A stretch of DNA of 7,557 nucleotides, taken from NCBI GenBank assembly GCA_015654605.1, contig JAATGO010000304.1:1-7557 (forward strand), read 5' to 3'. The notes under the pieces are model-generated. The model ran no database searches. It was not told the DNA's origin and worked only from the letters and a program-made list of their open reading frames with translations. This DNA comes from Betaproteobacteria bacterium (GTDB taxonomy: Bacteria; Pseudomonadota; Gammaproteobacteria; Burkholderiales; Burkholderiaceae). Below are positions 210 through 7,557 of this stretch, piece by piece; within the stretch, counting starts at the first letter, position 1, and every line of letters starts with the position of its first letter. Both the position numbers and the translations under genes were made by a program.

Positions 210-941
210 TTACGCATTATTCATCGCCTCGTTCATCTGTTGCAATTCCATTTTCACATCTTGCTCGAAACTCTGTAATGTGGCATGTAATTTATCAAAA
301 ATATTCGACAAAAATGCTTGGCGATCAGCGACTTCTGAAGAAATCGTTTCATGTGATGATGCAACATTCCACGTCCTCGTATTGAGTCGCGACGAACGAA
401 AATGTCCCCCAATGGGGTAAGATTGTCTCTGTGCACGTTGCCCCGTAAAAGACGCTGGGGACTCCTCCCTGCCATCTCCTGGAAAAGGTCTCCATGCCCC
501 CCCATTTCCAGGAGATACTGGAGATCCGCCCCCATCTCCCCCTGGTGGCGGGCCAGATGGTGGCCCCCACGGTCCATTCCCCATAGGTGGCGCTGGAGGC
601 CCTCTCCACGGCCCTCCTGGTGGTGGACCAGGTGGAGCTCCTCCCCACGTCCCTCCTGGTGGTGGACCAGGTGGAGCTCCTCCCCACGTCCCAACATTCG
701 CGGGTACTCCCCAAGAACCACCTGGTGGTGGAGGGGCATACCCAACAGAAGAACGATGTGTATACCTATCTATTACATCCAGCAATGTATTCACATTATC
801 ATTTGCAATACCTGCAATACTTCTTTCTATAATACCCTGTATGCCACCAAATGTTCTTTGGGAAAAGTTATTTGGAGTTTGTGTGGGAGCTCCTTGATAC
901 CCTGTATAGTGGTGATTAAAGGAAATTCCTGGAATGGTCAT
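210..941 (-). CDS. Proline/glycine-rich protein, candidate type III secreted substrate
   Basis: A 243-residue protein of no family I recognise. Residues 1-68 are polar and Asn/Ser/Thr/Gly-rich, with no hydrophobic signal peptide, compatible with a type III export signal. Residues 69-155 are a Pro/Gly/Trp-rich region containing two identical copies of GTWGGAPPGPPPG (84-96 and 97-109) followed by degenerate copies. Residues 205-243 look like an amphipathic helix or short coiled coil. There are no cysteines and no membrane segments. The start ATG at 939-941 is preceded by a purine-rich AGAAAGAAG, a moderate ribosome site. The gene follows sctV on the same strand behind a 326-bp leader with a candidate sigma-dependent promoter. 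Location and composition suggest a secreted substrate, but this is inference. Poly-proline repeats like these can bind eukaryotic proline-recognition domains, but nothing here proves it. It may also be an extracellular structural protein. The reading frame stays open beyond its TAA. Confidence 0.75.
   Translation of the reverse strand: MTIPGISFNHHYTGYQGAPTQTPNNFSQRTFGGIQGIIERSIAGIANDNVNTLLDVIDRYTHRSSVGYAPPPPGGSWGVPANVGTWGGAPPGPPPGGTWGGAPPGPPPGGPWRGPPAPPMGNGPWGPPSGPPPGGDGGGSPVSPGNGGAWRPFPGDGREESPASFTGQRAQRQSYPIGGHFRSSRLNTRTWNVASSHETISSEVADRQAFLSNIFDKLHATLQSFEQDVKMELQQMNEAMNNA
612..689. repeat. Perfect 39-bp tandem duplication
   Basis: Bases 612-650 and 651-689 are identical 39-bp units in direct tandem. 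Each encodes 13 residues, GTWGGAPPGPPPG, so the repeat preserves the reading frame of the minus-strand gene. Degenerate relatives flank it on both sides (roughly 540-611 and 690-735), as expected of an older array with one recent unit duplication. Confidence 0.95.
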
Positions 942-1267: not shown

Positions 1268-3361
1268 TTAAATTTCAATCATTCCTACTGGTTTTACTTT
1301 TGCATGCTGTGTTAGTTCAGAAAACGCAAATACAGGTACTGGAAAAAATTCTTCTTCAATTAATTTACGTACGGAACGACGAATATCTGCCGCTGTCACC
1401 AGTACTGGCGGTGTAATAGGTGTACTAACATTCGTGGATAATTCATTCAATTTATCCAGCATCATTTGTTCCAATTCCGAATCAATATCCAAATAACTTC
1501 CCTGACTGGTTTGTCTCATGGCATTTCGTAATTGATCTTCGAGCTCTGGAGATAATAAAATAACTTCAATCATGCCTTCACGTGACACCTCATAGCAAAG
1601 CTGTCGCTTAAACGCAAGACGCACATAATCTGCAATCACGTCAGGATCTCTTTCCTTCGGCGCCCAATCCAGAGTCGTCTCAAGTAAAAGTCTGGCGTTA
1701 CGGAGTGATACTCCTTCGCGAGTCAATCTCTGTACAATTTCAGTCAAACGCTGCAACGTCACTGTCTTGATAACTTCTTTCCCTAACTCTGGATAACGAC
1801 GTTCTGCCCAACGGGTAAAACGGATGACTTCATTGACGCCAACAAACATCTGGCAATTACGTAACATTTCCACTTCAATATCGGCAGAAAAAACAGTCTC
1901 CCACCGTTGCACTGGAATTCCAGCTTCTGTTAATTTTTCCTCATCATCTAGACGTACCCATACCCGTCTTCGTCTTGAGCCAGCAATATTTCTTTCCAAA
2001 GCGGTAAATCCCAATTCTGTCACGCGCTCCAAACTCTCTCGAGTAGCACCCCATCCCAGCCTGATTTCTTCATCAACCAGAGGAACCTCTGACATCATAA
2101 AATGTGCTCTTCCCTCCGGGATCGAATGATGAAACTCAAATTCAATCGGCTTCAAATCTGGAATCCCTCTTCGTTCAAGCATCGCATTGCGCATAATACG
2201 TACCGCCGCTCTGATAATTTCAGCTTCTGGTGTATTTCGCATATTTTCTGGCATACGTAAAATAAAAGGAGTGGTTGCCGAGAAATTGGTTAAATCGACA
2301 ATACCTGCATTTTTACGTTCCATTTCATCTGCCTCGCGCTGTATCTCTGCATCAGCGAGTGGTTTTAACAAACCAATAACACCTCCTATACTCAGTGCTA
2401 TCGCCAGGGTAATAAACACCATGGTCGGCATCCCTGGGATCAGACCAAACAACAGCATGATTGCAGCTGCAGTTAATAATGCCTTAGGTTCAGCAAATAA
2501 TTCTCCAACAATTTCTCGACCGATATTGCTTTCAACACCTTCCTCATGATCATCATTACTAACACGTGTAGTAATAATACCGGCGCCGAGAGAAATTAGA
2601 AGCGCAGGAATCTGAGCAATCAGCGCATCACCAATTGACAATATAGAATATACGCTCATCGCTTGAGCGGCATCCATATTACGCTGCACAATACCAATTG
2701 ATATTCCGCCAATTAAATTGATTGCCACAATGCAGAGACCCGCAATCGCATCTCCCTTGACAAATTTCATGGCACCATCCATCGCACCATGCAGTTGGCT
2801 TTCCTGCCCTAATTTTGCACGCTTGGATTTAGCTTCTTCAGCAGTCAGAATACCGGCTCGCAAGTCACTATCAATGGACATTTGTTTGCCTGGCATAGCA
2901 TCTAATGAAAACCGTGCAGATACTTCTGAAACACGCTCTGACCCTTTAGTAATCACAATAAATTGCACTACGGTCAGAATCAAAAATATCACTAGTCCAA
3001 CTACTAAATTTCCACCAACGACAAAATTACCAAAAGTTTCAACAATGTGACCAGCATCTGCCTCCAACAGAATCAGTCTTGTGGTCGATACTGAAATGGC
3101 TAACCGGAATAATGTCGTTAGCAGTAGTACTGCGGGGAAAGTAGAAAATGCCGTAGGACCTGCCATATACATGGCAACGATAACGATCAAACCTGAAGCG
3201 CATAGACTGCAGGAAATCAGGATATCCAGCAGCCACACCGGCATCGGTAAGACCAGCATGAAGACAATTCCAATCACCAACGCCGCCACCATTAACTCGG
3301 AACGTTGTGCCAAACGATTGGAAAACTTATTCAGCATCAATACGATGCCCATTGCCTTCAT
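1268..3361 (-). CDS. sctV: SctV, T3SS export-gate protein (LcrD/HrcV/FHIPEP family)
   Basis: This 697-residue inner-membrane protein is the export gate of the T3SS. In the family its C-terminal domain forms a nonameric cytoplasmic ring that binds chaperone-substrate complexes and the gatekeeper. The length fits the family. Residues 1-333 hold about eight hydrophobic segments (roughly 24-44, 46-66, 72-92, 109-135, 204-224, 236-262, 291-310, 312-332). The FHIPEP signature, including SARFSLDAMPGKQM and IDSDLRAG, falls at about 142-170 in the first long cytoplasmic loop. Residues 334-697 are the soluble domain. The ATG at 3359-3361 follows an excellent AAAGGGG ribosome site five bases upstream. 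Met4 and Met9 are less likely starts. The gene lies 20 bp after sctY and ends the visible export operon. The neighbouring SctX and SctY point to the Ysc/LcrD branch rather than the flagellar FlhA or plant HrcV branches. Confidence 0.98.
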   Translation of the reverse strand: MKAMGIVLMLNKFSNRLAQRSELMVAALVIGIVFMLVLPMPVWLLDILISCSLCASGLIVIVAMYMAGPTAFSTFPAVLLLTTLFRLAISVSTTRLILLEADAGHIVETFGNFVVGGNLVVGLVIFLILTVVQFIVITKGSERVSEVSARFSLDAMPGKQMSIDSDLRAGILTAEEAKSKRAKLGQESQLHGAMDGAMKFVKGDAIAGLCIVAINLIGGISIGIVQRNMDAAQAMSVYSILSIGDALIAQIPALLISLGAGIITTRVSNDDHEEGVESNIGREIVGELFAEPKALLTAAAIMLLFGLIPGMPTMVFITLAIALSIGGVIGLLKPLADAEIQREADEMERKNAGIVDLTNFSATTPFILRMPENMRNTPEAEIIRAAVRIMRNAMLERRGIPDLKPIEFEFHHSIPEGRAHFMMSEVPLVDEEIRLGWGATRESLERVTELGFTALERNIAGSRRRRVWVRLDDEEKLTEAGIPVQRWETVFSADIEVEMLRNCQMFVGVNEVIRFTRWAERRYPELGKEVIKTVTLQRLTEIVQRLTREGVSLRNARLLLETTLDWAPKERDPDVIADYVRLAFKRQLCYEVSREGMIEVILLSPELEDQLRNAMRQTSQGSYLDIDSELEQMMLDKLNELSTNVSTPITPPVLVTAADIRRSVRKLIEEEFFPVPVFAFSELTQHAKVKPVGMIEI

Positions 3362-3381: not shown

Positions 3382-3678
3382 CTATGCCATTTCTGATACT
3401 TGGTACAGATCCAGTCGACGTAAGATCAAGTCAATCCATTTTTCATTGTCTGGCGTTCTTAACGATAACAATTCTGCTCTCTCTACCGGTTCGAGAAGCT
3501 CAGCAGCAACATAAGCTGCCATTAACTGAAGTCGCTTCTCATCTGGCCATATCTGAAGACAGGCCATGGCCAATTGATACGCGGGCTCATATTGATAAAC
3601 GTTCATATGCCCCCACACCAAACCAATCGCTAACAGCAATTCTTCTGATGTGTCATCACGCGATCTTCTTTTCCTCAT
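3382..3678 (-). CDS. sctY: SctY (YscY-like) TPR chaperone of SctX
   Basis: A 98-residue, mostly helical protein placed between sctX and sctV exactly as YscY is in Yersinia. YscY is a small TPR-like cytoplasmic chaperone that binds YscX and through it the SctV ring. Residues 11-63 show a TPR-like helix pair (SEELLLAIGLVWGHMN, then YEPAYQLAMACLQIWPDEKR with the typical Y, A and P positions). It is slightly shorter than YscY (114 residues). The ATG at 3676-3678 lies inside the 3' end of sctX, giving a 23-bp overlap, and is preceded by GAAGAG seven bases upstream, so the two are probably translationally coupled. The N-terminus is strongly basic (MRKRRSR). Sequence similarity by eye is low, and the assignment rests on fold pattern, size and gene order. 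Confidence 0.8.
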   Translation of the reverse strand: MRKRRSRDDTSEELLLAIGLVWGHMNVYQYEPAYQLAMACLQIWPDEKRLQLMAAYVAAELLEPVERAELLSLRTPDNEKWIDLILRRLDLYQVSEMA

Positions 3679-4120
3679 GAATATTCTCTTCAGTGGAAAT
3701 AAAATTGCTTTCTGCTTCGCTACGCCTCATTTGCAACCACCGTAAACGCCATTGCACTGCCATTTCCACAACCCGAATTCCCTCCATACAGGAGGACCTT
3801 TCGACATCAGGTAAAGTTAATGCATGTTCGACTATTTTTTTTTGCAGGGAACGCATACGCGGCACAGGATCTCCCATCCAGGCAGGATTGTCTACGGTGC
3901 AATTTGGACCTAGTATCTGGTTAAGAATTAGCATTGTAGGGTCTGGTGCCAGACCTTCTGGTGGTAATGATGCTTCCTCTTCCTCTGCCAACAGATAAGG
4001 ACGTGACTTGATAACTGGATCAACTTCCGTCAATCCAGAAATCTCAACCAATTCTCCGACATCCAATAATCGACTACGCTCAACTGCACTATGCATCGTC
4101 GACGAACTAATTTTTTTCAT
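3656..4120 (-). CDS. sctX: SctX (YscX-like) T3SS export component
   Basis: A 154-residue protein in the YscX position. YscX is secreted early, is required for needle export and forms a complex with YscY and SctV. The diagnostic piece is LPPEGLAPDP at residues 52-61, matching the conserved LPPDG segment of YscX, followed by a helical C-terminal half (about 88-135). At 154 residues it is longer than YscX (122). The extra length includes a charged tail rich in Glu (about 134-154) whose coding sequence overlaps the start of sctY. The ATG at 4118-4120 has only a weak ribosome site. A 111-bp gap separates it from the upstream chaperone gene, the only sizeable gap in the lower half of the operon, so a separate promoter or lost sequence there is possible. 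I saw no promoter match in that gap. Confidence 0.85.
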   Translation of the reverse strand: MKKISSSTMHSAVERSRLLDVGELVEISGLTEVDPVIKSRPYLLAEEEEASLPPEGLAPDPTMLILNQILGPNCTVDNPAWMGDPVPRMRSLQKKIVEHALTLPDVERSSCMEGIRVVEMAVQWRLRWLQMRRSEAESNFISTEENIHEEKKIA

Positions 4121-4231
4121 TTCATCAGTACTCGTAAAAATATAATTCTTTTAACAGTAGCACGAATAAAGCAGGCATGAGATCATTCGGATATCAGTTA
4201 ATCCCTAACAATATCAATCATGACATCCTCG

Positions 4232-4558
4232 TCAATGAAGCAACTCTTCTACTTCCACTAATTCTGTGTACAATGAATGACACGTACCGTCACCATATTC
4301 AGAAAGACGACGGATAAGGTATAGACTTCCATCATTAAATACTGCAGGTAACCAACAACCAAACCGCGTCAAAGATTGACGTCTTTTTCGCAAAATATTT
4401 TTTGTCTGTGTCTGATCTGACATCCCAATACCTAATGCAACCAACATACCATTTTGTAATGGATATACTAGAAGTTTCATACCATTTCTCAGAGTATTGA
4501 TCGCAACTGCTTGCTGCATCTTCGCCTCATTCATCAATCTTATCAATAGCTCTTCCAT
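4232..4558 (-). CDS. Small T3SS chaperone in the SycN position (gatekeeper chaperone)
   Basis: A 108-residue protein between the TyeA-like gene and sctX, the slot held by sycN in Yersinia. SycN pairs with YscB to chaperone YopN and hold it at the export gate. The C-terminal half resembles SycN and other class I chaperones by eye: a Leu/Arg-rich helix (about 54-64), GCWLPAVFNDGSLYLIRRL (67-85, compare AGWLGESQLVLFVSL of SycN), then a final acidic helix (95-107). The ATG at 4556-4558 has a good GAAAGG ribosome site eight bases upstream, and the gap from the preceding gene is 28 bp. Overall similarity is weak, so position is the main argument. It could instead be a YscB-type partner. Confidence 0.6.
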   Translation of the reverse strand: MEELLIRLMNEAKMQQAVAINTLRNGMKLLVYPLQNGMLVALGIGMSDQTQTKNILRKRRQSLTRFGCWLPAVFNDGSLYLIRRLSEYGDGTCHSLYTELVEVEELLH

Positions 4559-4586
4559 TGTCGTAACCTTTCATTATTCTCTGCGT

Positions 4587-5099
4587 CTATCTTTGCTGCC
4601 GTTGCTTCAACTCATTTTTACCCAATGCAGAAATTGAGTTTCTCCATTCCTGTTCAAGGATCTCTGTTTTAGATGGAAACGACTGTACGTTACCCATAAA
4701 ATAGCTAATCTGATATGTCAGCTCTTCAATAAACTCTCTTCGAGCTGGTAATTTATCTTGAGTCCATAAAATAAGTGGCAATTGAGTCACTGCATCCCGA
4801 ATCAATAAATACATCTGTCCCTTCTTTTGAAAATCCACATGTTTTATATCAACTATCTGCGATATCATTTGACTGACCTTACCCTTCCCCCAGCCAGCCT
4901 CTGCTATCGTCAGTAATAGAACAGCCAATTCAGCAGCACTCAATTTAGGAAGTCGCTGTATCTTCTCAGAAAAATTTCGACGTAGGCTTTCTGCTATCTC
5001 AATGCTAGAACGAACTAATGTAAAGGTTGAACCATCAGCTATGGTTAGCCAATAACGCCCCATACTTCTTCCTGGGTTTTTCCTTAAATCAGATTTCAT
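4587..5099 (-). CDS. tyeA: TyeA-like gatekeeper subunit with extended N-terminus
   Basis: A 170-residue protein following sctW. TyeA binds the C-terminus of YopN and completes the gatekeeper that holds back effectors until cell contact. Residues 51-133 align by eye with the whole of Yersinia TyeA (92 residues): the LSAAEL start, a Trp at 70 matching the conserved TyeA Trp, and LPLILWTQDKLPARREFIEEL (107-127) matching FPLGVFSDEEQRQNLLQM. About 50 residues precede this domain and about 37 follow it, neither present in Yersinia TyeA. The N-terminal part (RYWLTIADGSTFTLV) looks like a small beta element of unknown role. The ATG at 5097-5099 has a moderate AGGGTGA site. Met13 is an alternative start. 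It lies 141 bp after sctW, so the gatekeeper is split into two genes as in Yersinia, not fused as in HrpJ or SsaL. Confidence 0.7.
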   Translation of the reverse strand: MKSDLRKNPGRSMGRYWLTIADGSTFTLVRSSIEIAESLRRNFSEKIQRLPKLSAAELAVLLLTIAEAGWGKGKVSQMISQIVDIKHVDFQKKGQMYLLIRDAVTQLPLILWTQDKLPARREFIEELTYQISYFMGNVQSFPSKTEILEQEWRNSISALGKNELKQRQQR

Positions 5100-5191
5100 G
5101 ACTAATCACCCTATCAATTTTCCACATCACGATCAGTTACATTAATGAGCTGATATCATCTACGTTCCACAGAAAATTCTATCTATCCTGC

Positions 5192-5212
5192 TTATCCATT
5201 CAACATGGATAA
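5192..5212 (-). repeat. 8-bp inverted repeat between sctW and tyeA
   Basis: TTATCCAT (5192-5199) and ATGGATAA (5205-5212) pair perfectly around a 5-nt loop in the 141-bp sctW-tyeA gap. No T-run follows on either strand, so it is not a standard terminator. It could be an RNA-processing or stability hairpin that sets the ratio of SctW to downstream products. Confidence 0.5.
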
Positions 5213-5240
5213 AACACTAGACACACTCCGCCTCATATTT

Positions 5241-6086
5241 CTATAGTCCAGACATCATTCTAGATCGCAAGCTATTCATGGCATGAACACACTTATCCTT
5301 CCCAAAATTCTTTATTAATGCCTTCAACATAATCAATGGTGTTAATGGGGAATCAAAATTTCCTTTCTTTTTTGCACCAATTAAAAATCGCAGGTTACGT
5401 ATTGACACGCCACTTTCATCTCCAGACATCGCCTCAATAGATCCAACCAGGTCATCAGTCTCCTGAAGAGCACGACGTAATTCATGTGGATATTTATCCA
5501 TCAGATTGCTCATCATTGCATTGAGTGAGTTTTTTAACGATATCTTCCGCCCCTTAAAATGGACATCATTTTCTAATTTTTCTATGGCTTCATACAATAC
5601 GTGATAGTGTTGCAATGGATCGAACTCTTTAGATAGCATTTCTTCTATTTCTTTTTGTCCATCTCTCCCATTATTTTCTTTCAACATCTCTAACGTATCA
5701 GATACAAGTGATAAAAACTTATCTTCATCATCAATATCTTCCACATCCTCATCTGTAAATGATGACGCCTTGGATGCACCAGAAGATTTCTTGGATGGAC
5801 TCCTTTTCTTCAGTTGGATTCTTTTGTTACCTGGCATTGTCATGCGTTGCATCAGAGTACGTGTTTTATAAGACACATCCTCTCTCACCCCAGCCTGGCT
5901 ATTGATGGTATCTGGTGATGCTAACTCAATAGGGCCGTGAGCATCCGCATTAACCGCAACGCCATGACGTGCTAATTGCTTGGGTTGCGCACGATTAGGC
6001 GCGTAATTCTCCAAGATATTGCTATTGAAATGATTAATATGCATGTTCATGGAGATATGTGGTGATGCTATCTTGCCAGGTTCCAT
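5241..6086 (-). CDS. sctW: SctW gatekeeper (YopN/HrpJ/InvE family)
   Basis: A 281-residue regulator of substrate switching, normally cytoplasmic at the export gate and itself secreted. The N-terminal 75 residues are Asn/Ser/Ala-rich and lack a hydrophobic signal, fitting a type III export signal. A Lys/Ser-rich stretch (88-107) and an acidic stretch (111-122) follow. The YopN/HrpJ-type helical domain runs from about 122 to 222, including FDPLQHYHVLYEAIEKLE (155-172). The last 50 residues (SIRNLRFLIGAKKKGNFDSP onward) fit the TyeA-facing end. Its length matches YopN (293), with TyeA supplied by the next gene. The start is uncertain: a perfect HrpL-type promoter overlaps Met1. If that promoter is used, translation must begin downstream, most simply at Met13 (6048-6050) or Met15 (6042-6044). 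Neither Met1 nor Met13 has a good ribosome site. Met1 would be served by the weaker upstream promoter at 6159-6187. Confidence 0.88.
   Translation of the reverse strand: MEPGKIASPHISMNMHINHFNSNILENYAPNRAQPKQLARHGVAVNADAHGPIELASPDTINSQAGVREDVSYKTRTLMQRMTMPGNKRIQLKKRSPSKKSSGASKASSFTDEDVEDIDDEDKFLSLVSDTLEMLKENNGRDGQKEIEEMLSKEFDPLQHYHVLYEAIEKLENDVHFKGRKISLKNSLNAMMSNLMDKYPHELRRALQETDDLVGSIEAMSGDESGVSIRNLRFLIGAKKKGNFDSPLTPLIMLKALIKNFGKDKCVHAMNSLRSRMMSGL
6056..6084 (-). promoter_or_regulatory. Perfect HrpL-type promoter (hrp box) at the sctW start
   Basis: On the minus strand GGAACC (6079-6084) and CCACATA (6056-6062) are separated by exactly 16 bases, matching all 11 defined positions of the published HrpL consensus GGAACC-N16-CCACNNA. 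It lies at the head of the T3SS operon beside an ECF sigma gene. By chance an exact match would be expected roughly once in four million positions. The first G of the -35 element is the last base of the apparent ATG of sctW. Confidence 0.85.
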
Positions 6087-6158
6087 CTTCTACTGGAAGC
6101 CTTATCTGCAAGGAGTAAAACATTTGAAAGCGATTCAAAGTCGAGACTTACATTATTT

Positions 6159-6187
6159 TTACTGAAATTCAGGCACTGGTGAGTTCC
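6159..6187 (-). promoter_or_regulatory. Second, weaker HrpL-type promoter candidate upstream of sctW
   Basis: GGAACT (6182-6187), 16 bases, then TCAGTAA (6159-6165) on the minus strand: 8 of 11 defined positions of the HrpL consensus. A transcript starting near 6152 would carry a leader of about 65 nt to the sctW ATG at 6086. It shares GGAACT-N17-CA with the element at 1230-1258. Confidence 0.4.
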
Positions 6188-6249
6188 ATTTATATGGATA
6201 TTTAATGCCAATATTCCTCAAATTTTTTCAATGTCTCACGAATACTCAC

Positions 6250-6278
6250 AGAACGAAGAGATATCTGAATACCACTGC
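6250..6278 (+). promoter_or_regulatory. Degenerate HrpL-type box upstream of the sigma factor gene
   Basis: AGAACG (6250-6255), 16 bases, then CCACTGC (6272-6278) on the plus strand: GAAC and CCAC are intact with correct spacing, 8 of 11 defined positions. It lies 93 bp before the sigma ATG and would imply autoregulation. Two -35 mismatches make it speculative. I see no convincing sigma-70 or sigma-54 promoter here. Confidence 0.3.
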
Positions 6279-6371
6279 TATCGTCCATCCATACTTTTTG
6301 AGATGCTATTGTAAAAATTTCCTACATCATCTCAATTTTCACTAACAGCTTAGTGTTTCAAGGAGAACGCT

Positions 6372-6980
6372 ATGGATCATCCAGTGTTTAGTAATCATAT
6401 ATCTGATTTTCATCCATCGGAATTGGATACCGAGGACAACACAATTGAAGAAGCCACCAGAGACGTACCACAAATTGATATCGTTGCACTTTATACAGAA
6501 CATCGTAGCCATATTTTACGTTTTGTCCAACGTTACGTAGGAAATCATGAGGATGCGGAAGACGTCGTGCAAAACACATTCATCGAGGCAGTTAAATGTG
6601 CACATCGCTTCTCTGGCTTGTCTAAACCATCAACATGGTTATTTGGCATTGCATTGAATTTAGCTCGTAATCAGGTACGCCGTAACACAGCTAACCGCTA
6701 CGACATGGTAGATGAGAATTTTATGGAACAACTTGTCGATACCCACGCCGATCCGGCGATGTTGTTCGAATTACGCCAGATCGCACAGAAAGTCGATGCA
6801 TTACTCAATGAACTACCACCAAAAATCCGCTCAACATTTGAGGCAGTACTTGATGGAGATGCAACCTATGAAGAAGCGGCAGAACAGCTTCATATTCCCA
6901 TTGGAACAGTACGTTCACGTGTTTCTCGTGTAAGAGCCGCAGTTCGCAATGAATACGGATCCTCACATCGAGAAGATTGA
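6372..6980 (+). CDS. hrpL: ECF-type RNA polymerase sigma factor, HrpL/BtrS-like T3SS regulator
   Basis: A 202-residue sigma factor of the extracytoplasmic-function (ECF) class, directing RNA polymerase to a dedicated promoter set. Residues 1-35 are an acidic extension. Sigma region 2 spans about 38-105: YVGNHEDAEDVVQNTFIEA (56-74) is the core-polymerase and -10 recognition part, and STWLFGIALNLARNQVRR (87-104) ends it. Region 4 spans about 141-193, with the -35-binding helix-turn-helix at ATYEEAAEQLHIPIGTVRSR (164-183). Only regions 2 and 4 are present, as expected for ECF factors. The ATG at 6372 follows a strong AAGGAG ribosome site six bases upstream. It is divergent from sctW, and a perfect HrpL-type promoter heads that operon, which is why I call it HrpL-like. 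The symbol rests on this context, not proven orthology, and Bordetella BtrS, an ECF factor driving a Ysc-type system, may be the closer functional parallel. No anti-sigma gene is visible. Confidence 0.92.
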   Translation: MDHPVFSNHISDFHPSELDTEDNTIEEATRDVPQIDIVALYTEHRSHILRFVQRYVGNHEDAEDVVQNTFIEAVKCAHRFSGLSKPSTWLFGIALNLARNQVRRNTANRYDMVDENFMEQLVDTHADPAMLFELRQIAQKVDALLNELPPKIRSTFEAVLDGDATYEEAAEQLHIPIGTVRSRVSRVRAAVRNEYGSSHRED

Positions 6981-6983
6981 TAG

Positions 6984-7029
6984 TATGGCGCGCAAGTTAC
7001 TAGCTTTAGCGCGCCATATTTTCTTTTTT
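6984..7029 (+). terminator. Intrinsic terminator of the sigma gene
   Basis: TATGGCGCGC (6984-6993) and GCGCGCCATA (7009-7018) form a perfect 10-bp GC-rich stem, with AAG/CTT pairing possible inside the 15-nt loop, followed by TTTTCTTTTTT. It begins three bases after the sigma stop codon. The T-run is only on the plus strand, so it serves the sigma gene. The right arm overlaps the last codons of the convergent chaperone gene. Confidence 0.92.
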
Positions 7030-7446
7030 ATCTGACTGAATAACTGCAAAGTAACGACTCGCCAAATCAGCAGTAGATAGGATGGCATCCATGACACTAC
7101 GTTCATCGCTCAACTCCGTCATCGGGATTTTCTTAACAACAATGTAGCGCCCTTCATCTGCCTGCCAAAAGAATTCAATATCAGAAATATTGTCATCTAT
7201 TTCTGTTTTGGGAGAAAATAATAACGGTAGATAATGTGGATGTTCACAACTAGGTAATAATCCTGTAATGGAAAGATAACGATCAGCTCCACTGTATTCG
7301 ACGGAAGCACGTGTGATAATTTCTCCAATCTGCAACTCAAGCACAGGATTCTCTGACCCTTCCTGTCCTGCAAGAGCAGTGAGTTCAAGTAACAAGTGTT
7401 TTACCTGAACAGCAGAAATATCGTCGTTATTGTCGTCTTGTTGCAA
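7006..7446 (-). CDS. CesT-like class I type III secretion chaperone
   Basis: A 146-residue acidic protein with the features of class I T3SS chaperones, small dimeric cytoplasmic proteins that keep an effector or translocator export-ready. An N-terminal helix (about 12-28, VKHLLLELTALAG) is followed by beta-rich segments (ELQIGEIITRASVEY, RYLSITGLL, IEFFWQADEGRYIVVKKIPM, about 37-110) and a C-terminal helix (about 115-136, MDAILSTADLASRYFAVIQ). The apparent start is TTG (7444-7446), with GAGAAGG eight bases upstream. An ATT codon just before it is possible, and the frame is closed by TGA at 7465-7467, so there is no upstream ATG. It converges on the sigma gene, and its last three codons (MAR) lie in the right arm of that gene's terminator. 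No hrp-type box is visible in the available upstream 110 bp. Its partner is probably outside the window. Family by pattern, not by search. Confidence 0.68.
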   Translation of the reverse strand: MQQDDNNDDISAVQVKHLLLELTALAGQEGSENPVLELQIGEIITRASVEYSGADRYLSITGLLPSCEHPHYLPLLFSPKTEIDDNISDIEFFWQADEGRYIVVKKIPMTELSDERSVMDAILSTADLASRYFAVIQSDKKENMAR

Positions 7447-7557
7447 AATCGTAGCCTTCTCAGGTCAGCAAAGGTACACAATGTGGCCACCCAACGTAGC
7501 GCTGCAAGATAGGAAAGTATTTTACCTGTTAATCATTACAAGGAAAAGATAGTCTGC

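Follow-up and report, generated by a model that had tools for sequence, protein, structure and literature searches.

An HrpL-type promoter sequence abuts the predicted start codon of a putative sctW gene and may give rise to a leaderless mRNA

An exact hrp box, GGAACC-N16-CCACATA, lies on the minus strand of the window (the whole stretch of DNA analysed here, 7,557 nt) at 6084–6056, and only five bases separate its end from an ATG that forms codon 13 of the longest open reading frame of a putative sctW gene. Judging from the sequence, we consider it highly probable that this box is the HrpL-type promoter of an operon running from sctW to sctV, that it abuts the start codon and that translation begins leaderlessly at Met13. 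We propose that HrpL, encoded by the divergent ECF gene at 6372, would direct RNA polymerase to the box, that transcription would begin at or within a few nucleotides of the A at 6050 to give an mRNA with a 5′ AUG or a leader of 1–3 nt, and that the protein would begin at Met13 by leaderless initiation without a Shine-Dalgarno sequence, residues 1–12 of the longest open reading frame never being made. The features on which this proposal turns are as follows.

6079..6084, minus strand: -35 element GGAACC of the HrpL-type promoter; exact match, its first G being the G of the presumed false ATG
6056..6062, minus strand: -10 element CCACATA (CCACNNA); exact match, with a 16-nt spacer to the -35 element
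6084..6086, minus strand: ATG of the longest open reading frame, most likely no start codon but promoter DNA that translates as ‘MEP’; the 12 codons bear no sign of constraint as protein, and in-frame stops occur within the box in 7 of 30 loci
6048..6050, minus strand: Met13, the predicted true start codon; 30 of 32 records have an ATG 5, 6 or 8 nt beyond the box
6050, minus strand: predicted transcription start at the A of AUG, 6 nt past the A of the -10 element; based on published HrpL start sites and the sequence
6042..6044, minus strand: Met15, a second ATG and possible alternative start with a 6-nt leader; missing in several relatives
5241..6050, minus strand: revised putative sctW coding sequence, 269 aa plus stop; from open reading frame calls and homologue alignment

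The preliminary description of this DNA had read GGAACC-N16-CCACATA as a full match to the HrpL consensus with a -35 element beginning on the last base of the apparent sctW ATG, and both observations hold: the match is exact, and the box runs from 6084 while the ATG occupies 6086–6084, a single base being common to the two. This is the only match in the window to GGAACC-N15..17-CCACNNA, against a chance expectation of 0.01 and a match in one of 200 shuffles. The position of the box is more than chance because the same placement recurs in relatives. These were gathered by a protein database search, which yielded 18 proteins including the window’s own, and by a scan of genome contigs, which gave six named loci (three Herbaspirillum, a Duganella MAG, a Burkholderiales MAG and Pseudoduganella violacea). 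Among 392 genomes belonging to the family of the first locus, 27 had a match, five of them being the genomes of named loci; two genus searches of 34 and 74 genomes found matches in 11 and 15 and added three loci; and an order-wide search found matches in 3 of 399 genomes, two already in the set and the third, G614, dropped as a weak 37-residue match with an internal stop. The resulting 32 records comprise the window, 30 genomes and one MAG (the Burkholderiales MAG, L005). Left out of the counts were L034 (a second weak match in G004), L035 (the G614 match), and L001–L004 and L006, which come from the same genomes as G001–G005; the weak homologues L027–L033 and L057 were retained, the nearest box was taken wherever several adjoined a gene, and L005 and L030 were scored as misses.

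Counted in this way, 30 of 32 records have 5, 6 or 8 nt between the end of the box and the start codon of this gene (5 nt in 13, 6 nt in 14 and 8 nt in three), a figure that is not a count of independent events, as the loci share descent. Within the 392-genome family set the ATG lies at one of these distances in 26 of 27 cases, the exception being L030, and all three loci from the genus searches, obtained once the spacing rule stood, conform to it. In one conforming locus (L010) ACAC replaces CCAC. L030 (genome G219) has an N15 box with the assigned ATG 28 nt downstream; another ATG 1 nt past that box opens a six-codon frame, possibly a tiny leader ORF. The Burkholderiales MAG keeps the -35 element ATGGAACC, 33 nt from the ATG, with a -10 element that is degenerate although the locus includes a relative of the sigma gene; alteration or decay of the promoter is a possibility there. 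A plasmid search with sctV DNA returned partial, distant matches only, with no record covering 80% of the query.

The distance between box and start codon is also specific. An N16 box followed by an ATG at 5–6 nt occurs 31 times in 25 of the 30 genomes, 25 of these occurrences being this gene as judged by position, and the reversed pattern occurs not once; the five genomes lacking such a match are G001 (with ACAC), the three 8-nt genomes and G219. Relaxing the distance to anything from 0 to 30 nt gives 125 matches versus 75 with the reversed pattern, two genomes contributing 44 of the latter; 31 of the 125 fall at distances 5 and 6, each other distance holding 3.2 on average and 8 at most. A functionless chance match would be in keeping with the abundance of exact boxes as such, which show no genome-wide enrichment (46 versus 57 for the reversed pattern in five genomes), yet the expectation of 0.01 in the window, the box in the same place in 30 of 32 records and the empty reversed-pattern control at 5–6 nt leave this explanation a negligible probability. 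Two similar-looking sites away from this gene, G003:C49:5691-5727 and G220:C25:52941-52977, also carry a box with an ATG at 5 nt and perhaps share a coding stretch.

Twenty-four other exact boxes are listed in the stretches around the gene in seven genomes, and none has the ATG of an open reading frame of at least 90 aa at 5–8 nt, three having one at -1 or 0 nt. Nine of the 24 precede a Shine-Dalgarno start (dG -4.4 to -9.3, one of them GTG) with leaders of 38–105 nt, as assigned by eye; the remainder, which have no clear gene, may be chance matches. Exact boxes that touch or overlap the ATG of a longer open reading frame are found at G134:C1:2970783 (485 aa), G031:C1:2733278 (102 aa) and G001:C57:76464 (148 aa), and at the last of these a start with a leader, 38 nt beyond the box, is equally likely.

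The twelve residues ahead of Met13 are most likely promoter DNA read as protein. The preliminary description had raised the question of whether residues 1–12 are conserved as protein or only as DNA; the relatives show no sign of protein constraint, and the -35 DNA is kept. In the alignment of the 18 proteins, conservation begins at the MNM(K/Q)IN start. Positioned 10–12 residues before it, ‘MEP’ is present in six and ‘MEL’ in one of the 17 other homologues, and the residues between this motif and the conserved start are mostly unlike. Protein conservation was rejected as an account of the motif: as DNA, ‘MEP’/‘MEL’ is the -35 element, ATGGAACC translating to ME(P), a reading made for the 17 homologues from their proteins, with the DNA seen only where a fetched locus encodes one. 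AT precedes GGAAC in 16 of 30 loci, and four of these belong to the 6-nt class, in which the box lies in a different reading frame from that of the 5- and 8-nt classes and the resulting ATG is out of frame.

Substitution patterns point the same way. In the 5-nt class (13 loci) the pairwise difference in the spacer is 0.65, 0.69 and 0.50 at codon positions 1, 2 and 3, so that positions 1 and 2 are at least as variable as position 3 and the pattern expected of protein constraint does not appear; codons 2–8 past the ATG give 0.47, 0.66 and 0.56 over the whole class. A contrast between coding sequence and spacer is clear only within sets of closer loci, namely seven loci with 0.31, 0.34 and 0.43 in these codons versus 0.56, 0.66 and 0.56 in the spacer, and L020–L023 with 0.06, 0.14 and 0.15 in codons 2–20 versus 0.33, 0.31 and 0.26 in the spacer. 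The invariance of the box positions themselves is partly due to the loci having been chosen by their box. In 7 of 30 loci an in-frame stop falls inside the box (the TGA ending the -10 element in L010, L013, L014, L015, L017 and L019, and a stop in the spacer in L028), and coding therefore cannot extend above the box there; among these seven, L010 alone has a further start codon between the stop and the ATG, namely a GTG right after the box. The frame is open back to the box-overlapping ATG in 12 of 30 loci, the window included, and L011 and L012 carry one more in-frame ATG, which overlaps the final base of the box, so that these genes, taken alone, leave room for an upstream start.

The putative sctW gene lies upstream of sctV on the same strand and divergent from the hrp sigma gene in the window and in all six named loci. 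The other genes of the presumed operon, which would be read as a single transcript through to sctV, and the sigma gene are as follows.

4587..5099, minus strand: second gene in the presumed operon (170 aa), without a family above cut-off; syntenic in six of six named loci
4232..4558, minus strand: third gene, 108 aa; no family, relatives in six of six named loci
3656..4120, minus strand: fourth gene, 154 aa; no family, relatives in six of six named loci
3382..3678, minus strand: fifth gene, 98 aa; no family above cut-off, relatives in six of six named loci
1268..3361, minus strand: sctV (hrcV); TIGR01399 at 772 bits, good Shine-Dalgarno sequence (dG -7.9)
6372..6980, plus strand: divergent ECF sigma factor; Sigma70_r2 and r4, general ECF models only, normal Shine-Dalgarno sequence (dG -8.5)

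The sigma factor is 38% identical over 159 aa to the one adjoining sctW in Pantoea vagans, relatives of it are found in 25 of 30 short loci from the relatives’ genomes and in all six named loci, and it is likely to be the HrpL-type sigma that reads the sctW promoter.

Within the window, start signals set the putative sctW gene apart. The hybridisation energy with the 16S tail at Met13 of the window is +1.3 kcal/mol, meaning that there is no Shine-Dalgarno sequence; in the same window sctV reaches -7.9, the sigma gene -8.5 and the four small genes between sctW and sctV -2.5 to -4.6. In 26 relatives the energies for sctW range from +1.2 to -5.3; three of them, at -4.8 or below, leave the absence of a Shine-Dalgarno sequence doubtful. 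For comparison, the median over the best candidate starts of 321 long cluster open reading frames is -4.3, and 46% lie at -5 or below; given this median, the contrast is modest in the GC-rich relatives. In 30 of 30 loci the first 45 nt have weaker structure than stretches from inside the gene, which lends mild support to a leaderless start, weak 5′ structure being usual for bacterial genes. Together, the spacing in 30 of 32 records, the stops in 7 of 30 loci and the missing Shine-Dalgarno sequence favour one of two possibilities raised in the preliminary description, namely that the open reading frame is 12 residues too long and would be read from a leaderless or near-leaderless mRNA.

A conventional alternative is an unseen upstream promoter producing a led mRNA that is translated from Met1 or Met13, with the box acting as a secondary internal promoter. 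The frame of the window is open back to Met1, as in the 12 loci noted above, a weak purine run (dG -3.8) lies upstream of Met1, and two candidate promoters can be pointed to: a sigma-70-like site at 6335-6308 on the minus strand that scores 10/12 and a box-like site with two mismatches at 6187-6159. Both kinds of site occur at chance level, however, with 11 sigma-70-like sites found versus 11.4 expected over 4000–7557, and seven boxes with two mismatches versus 4.2 expected, a number reached in 27 of 200 shuffles. Moreover, a start upstream is blocked by the in-box stop in 7 of 30 loci, a start at Met13 would lack a Shine-Dalgarno sequence, and the spacing kept in 30 of 32 records is left unexplained, and we therefore regard a led transcript as very unlikely.

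The other possibility raised in the preliminary description, that two promoters give two N-termini and hence a long and a short gatekeeper, finds a parallel in the Herbaspirillum CF444 genus set, where L007 and L008 have a second exact box 67–69 nt upstream, followed in L007 by an in-frame ATG with a strong Shine-Dalgarno sequence (dG -9.1) that would add 8 residues. In L008, though, only a TTG and no in-frame ATG lies upstream of the conserved ATG; a long form is excluded wherever the frame is closed inside the box; and the window itself has no second N16 box with fewer than two mismatches, its sigma-70-like sites being at chance level. For the window this arm of the earlier proposal thus loses its footing, and we judge it highly improbable. 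The tandem boxes of L007 (G134) and L008 (G031) stand at -101/-103 and -34 from the start of the match; their upstream copies could give a led transcript in those two genomes, and L007 possibly makes a longer second form.

Where a transcript from the box would begin can be predicted from mapped HrpL promoters. In Pseudomonas syringae DC3000, 5′ ends were captured 0–7 bp from the -10 element for most of 20 candidate HrpL promoters, and at 3–7 bp for one of them (PMC4149516); in another study, 39 of 49 HrpL start sites are 2–4 bp from the end of the box as annotated there and the other 10 at 0–75 bp (PMC4544800). Positions 1–7 past the -10 element of the window read TCTCCAT, which contains no purine besides the A of the ATG. 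A pyrimidine immediately precedes the ATG in all 30 loci (28 C, 2 T), compared with 78 of 147 Shine-Dalgarno-led starts in the clusters, and this fits a pyrimidine-purine start at the A. The mRNA is thus likely to begin with AUG or to carry a leader a few nucleotides long, and we infer 6050 as its exact 5′ base. The preliminary description had placed the transcript start near 6049, at or just beside Met13; this location agrees with our prediction, and the base is refined to 6050 because the TCTCC between the -10 A (6056) and the ATG holds no purine. In the three loci of the 8-nt class the leader would be about 3 nt long.

Given the scatter of HrpL start sites in P. syringae, a leader of 1–3 nt is possible, as is a start just inside the ATG, in which event Met15 would be used. 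A near-leaderless start at Met15 with a 6-nt leader draws on the ATG-NNN-ATG arrangement of the window and of L007, L008, L009, L011, L012, L018 and L027, and two homologues (P0012 and P0013) are called from the equivalent ATG. The second ATG is nevertheless missing in L010, L013–L017 and L019–L023, and Met15, too, is without a Shine-Dalgarno sequence (dG +2.6); we consider it an unlikely start.

The elements of the window correspond to those of known HrpL promoters in P. syringae DC3000, which share the -35 and -10 elements, the spacing between them and a sigma of the HrpL-type ECF group (PMC4149516, PMC3247240). Some P. syringae boxes fall within reading frames, and 5′ ends mapped internally have already raised the suspicion of misplaced start codons in that species (PMC4149516, PMC3247240). 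‘Leaderless’ is not a word of the main text of either article, whereas in the lineage of the window the box abuts the start codon of one particular gene. Herbaspirillum rubrisubalbicans has the same kind of system, in which hrp boxes precede six transcription units; one of these, orf6, is the first gene of an operon extending to hrcN (PMC3487950). Our guess is that orf6 may be the gene described here, and the accessible text of that report mentions neither the distance from box to start codon nor leaderless translation. In Pantoea vagans the sctW gene (hrpJ; L056) likewise precedes sctV and diverges from an ECF sigma gene, and has the box GGAACC-N15-CCACATA; unlike the window, it has 34 nt between box and ATG, an ordinary leader in this single comparison, and it directly adjoins sctV, where the window has four small genes in between.

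Leaderless mRNAs as such are common in β-proteobacteria (Burkholderia cenocepacia, PMC4603805; Cupriavidus metallidurans, PMC7563307), accounting for 4.67% of primary starts in C. metallidurans (PMC7563307). As predicted for the window, they start at or near the start codon, with the promoter in the place of a Shine-Dalgarno sequence; they differ in having been mapped by RNA-seq and in being enriched in transcription regulators, whereas the window case concerns an ECF/HrpL-type promoter and a secretion gene and is a prediction from sequence. In open-access PMC text, supplements excluded, we found no HrpL-driven leaderless secretion gene and no pairing of HrpJ with leaderless, and open-access PMC searches combining leaderless with Herbaspirillum or a type III gatekeeper gave nothing relevant as judged by title or the start of the abstract; the start-site maps of Shigella and Chlamydia may include leaderless secretion genes read from other promoters. 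What appears to be new, then, is an ECF/HrpL-type promoter that abuts a start codon and is kept among relatives, the leaderless mRNA itself being already known.

The revised start would correct the likely beginning of a conserved secretion-system gene and hence the N-terminus, the usual site of secretion signals, of its product. It also provides a clear example of a promoter and a start codon that have remained adjacent across related bacteria, and would connect, in a way open to testing, the leaderless translation of a single type III secretion component with an ECF sigma promoter. A more speculative idea, which we think doubtful, is that leaderless initiation is a selected control point, the protein in the gatekeeper position being made by a 70S-type route and sctV and the other Hrp operons by way of Shine-Dalgarno sequences; if this were true, the ratio of gatekeeper to export apparatus would shift with the state of the ribosomes, for example under stress.

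The putative assignment of the gene as sctW draws on its position. Its product has no Pfam, NCBIfam or PDB sequence match of value: HrpJ (PF07201) is detected in none of the 18 family members at E ≤ 1 and nowhere above cut-off in six genomes, and the NCBIfam gatekeeper models (LcrE/SctW, TIGR02568) match neither the window protein at E ≤ 0.001 nor the L001 protein at E ≤ 1, the Pantoea SctW being one that does match the NCBIfam gatekeeper model. With Foldseek, no gatekeeper is among the best 50 of 189 rows, and YopN, InvE, MxiC and BopN are present in a second-look list; a gatekeeper-like fold for residues 119–221 (numbering of the 281-aa open reading frame) is suggestive only. On the flanks of the cluster, a 243-aa frame with Pro/Gly-rich repeats lies downstream of sctV (210–941, minus strand); it matches no family above cut-off, and tblastn against the six named loci returned nothing. 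Beyond the sigma gene, a small gene on the minus strand (7006–7446), for which no Pfam or NCBIfam family rises above cut-off, has relatives in all six named loci.
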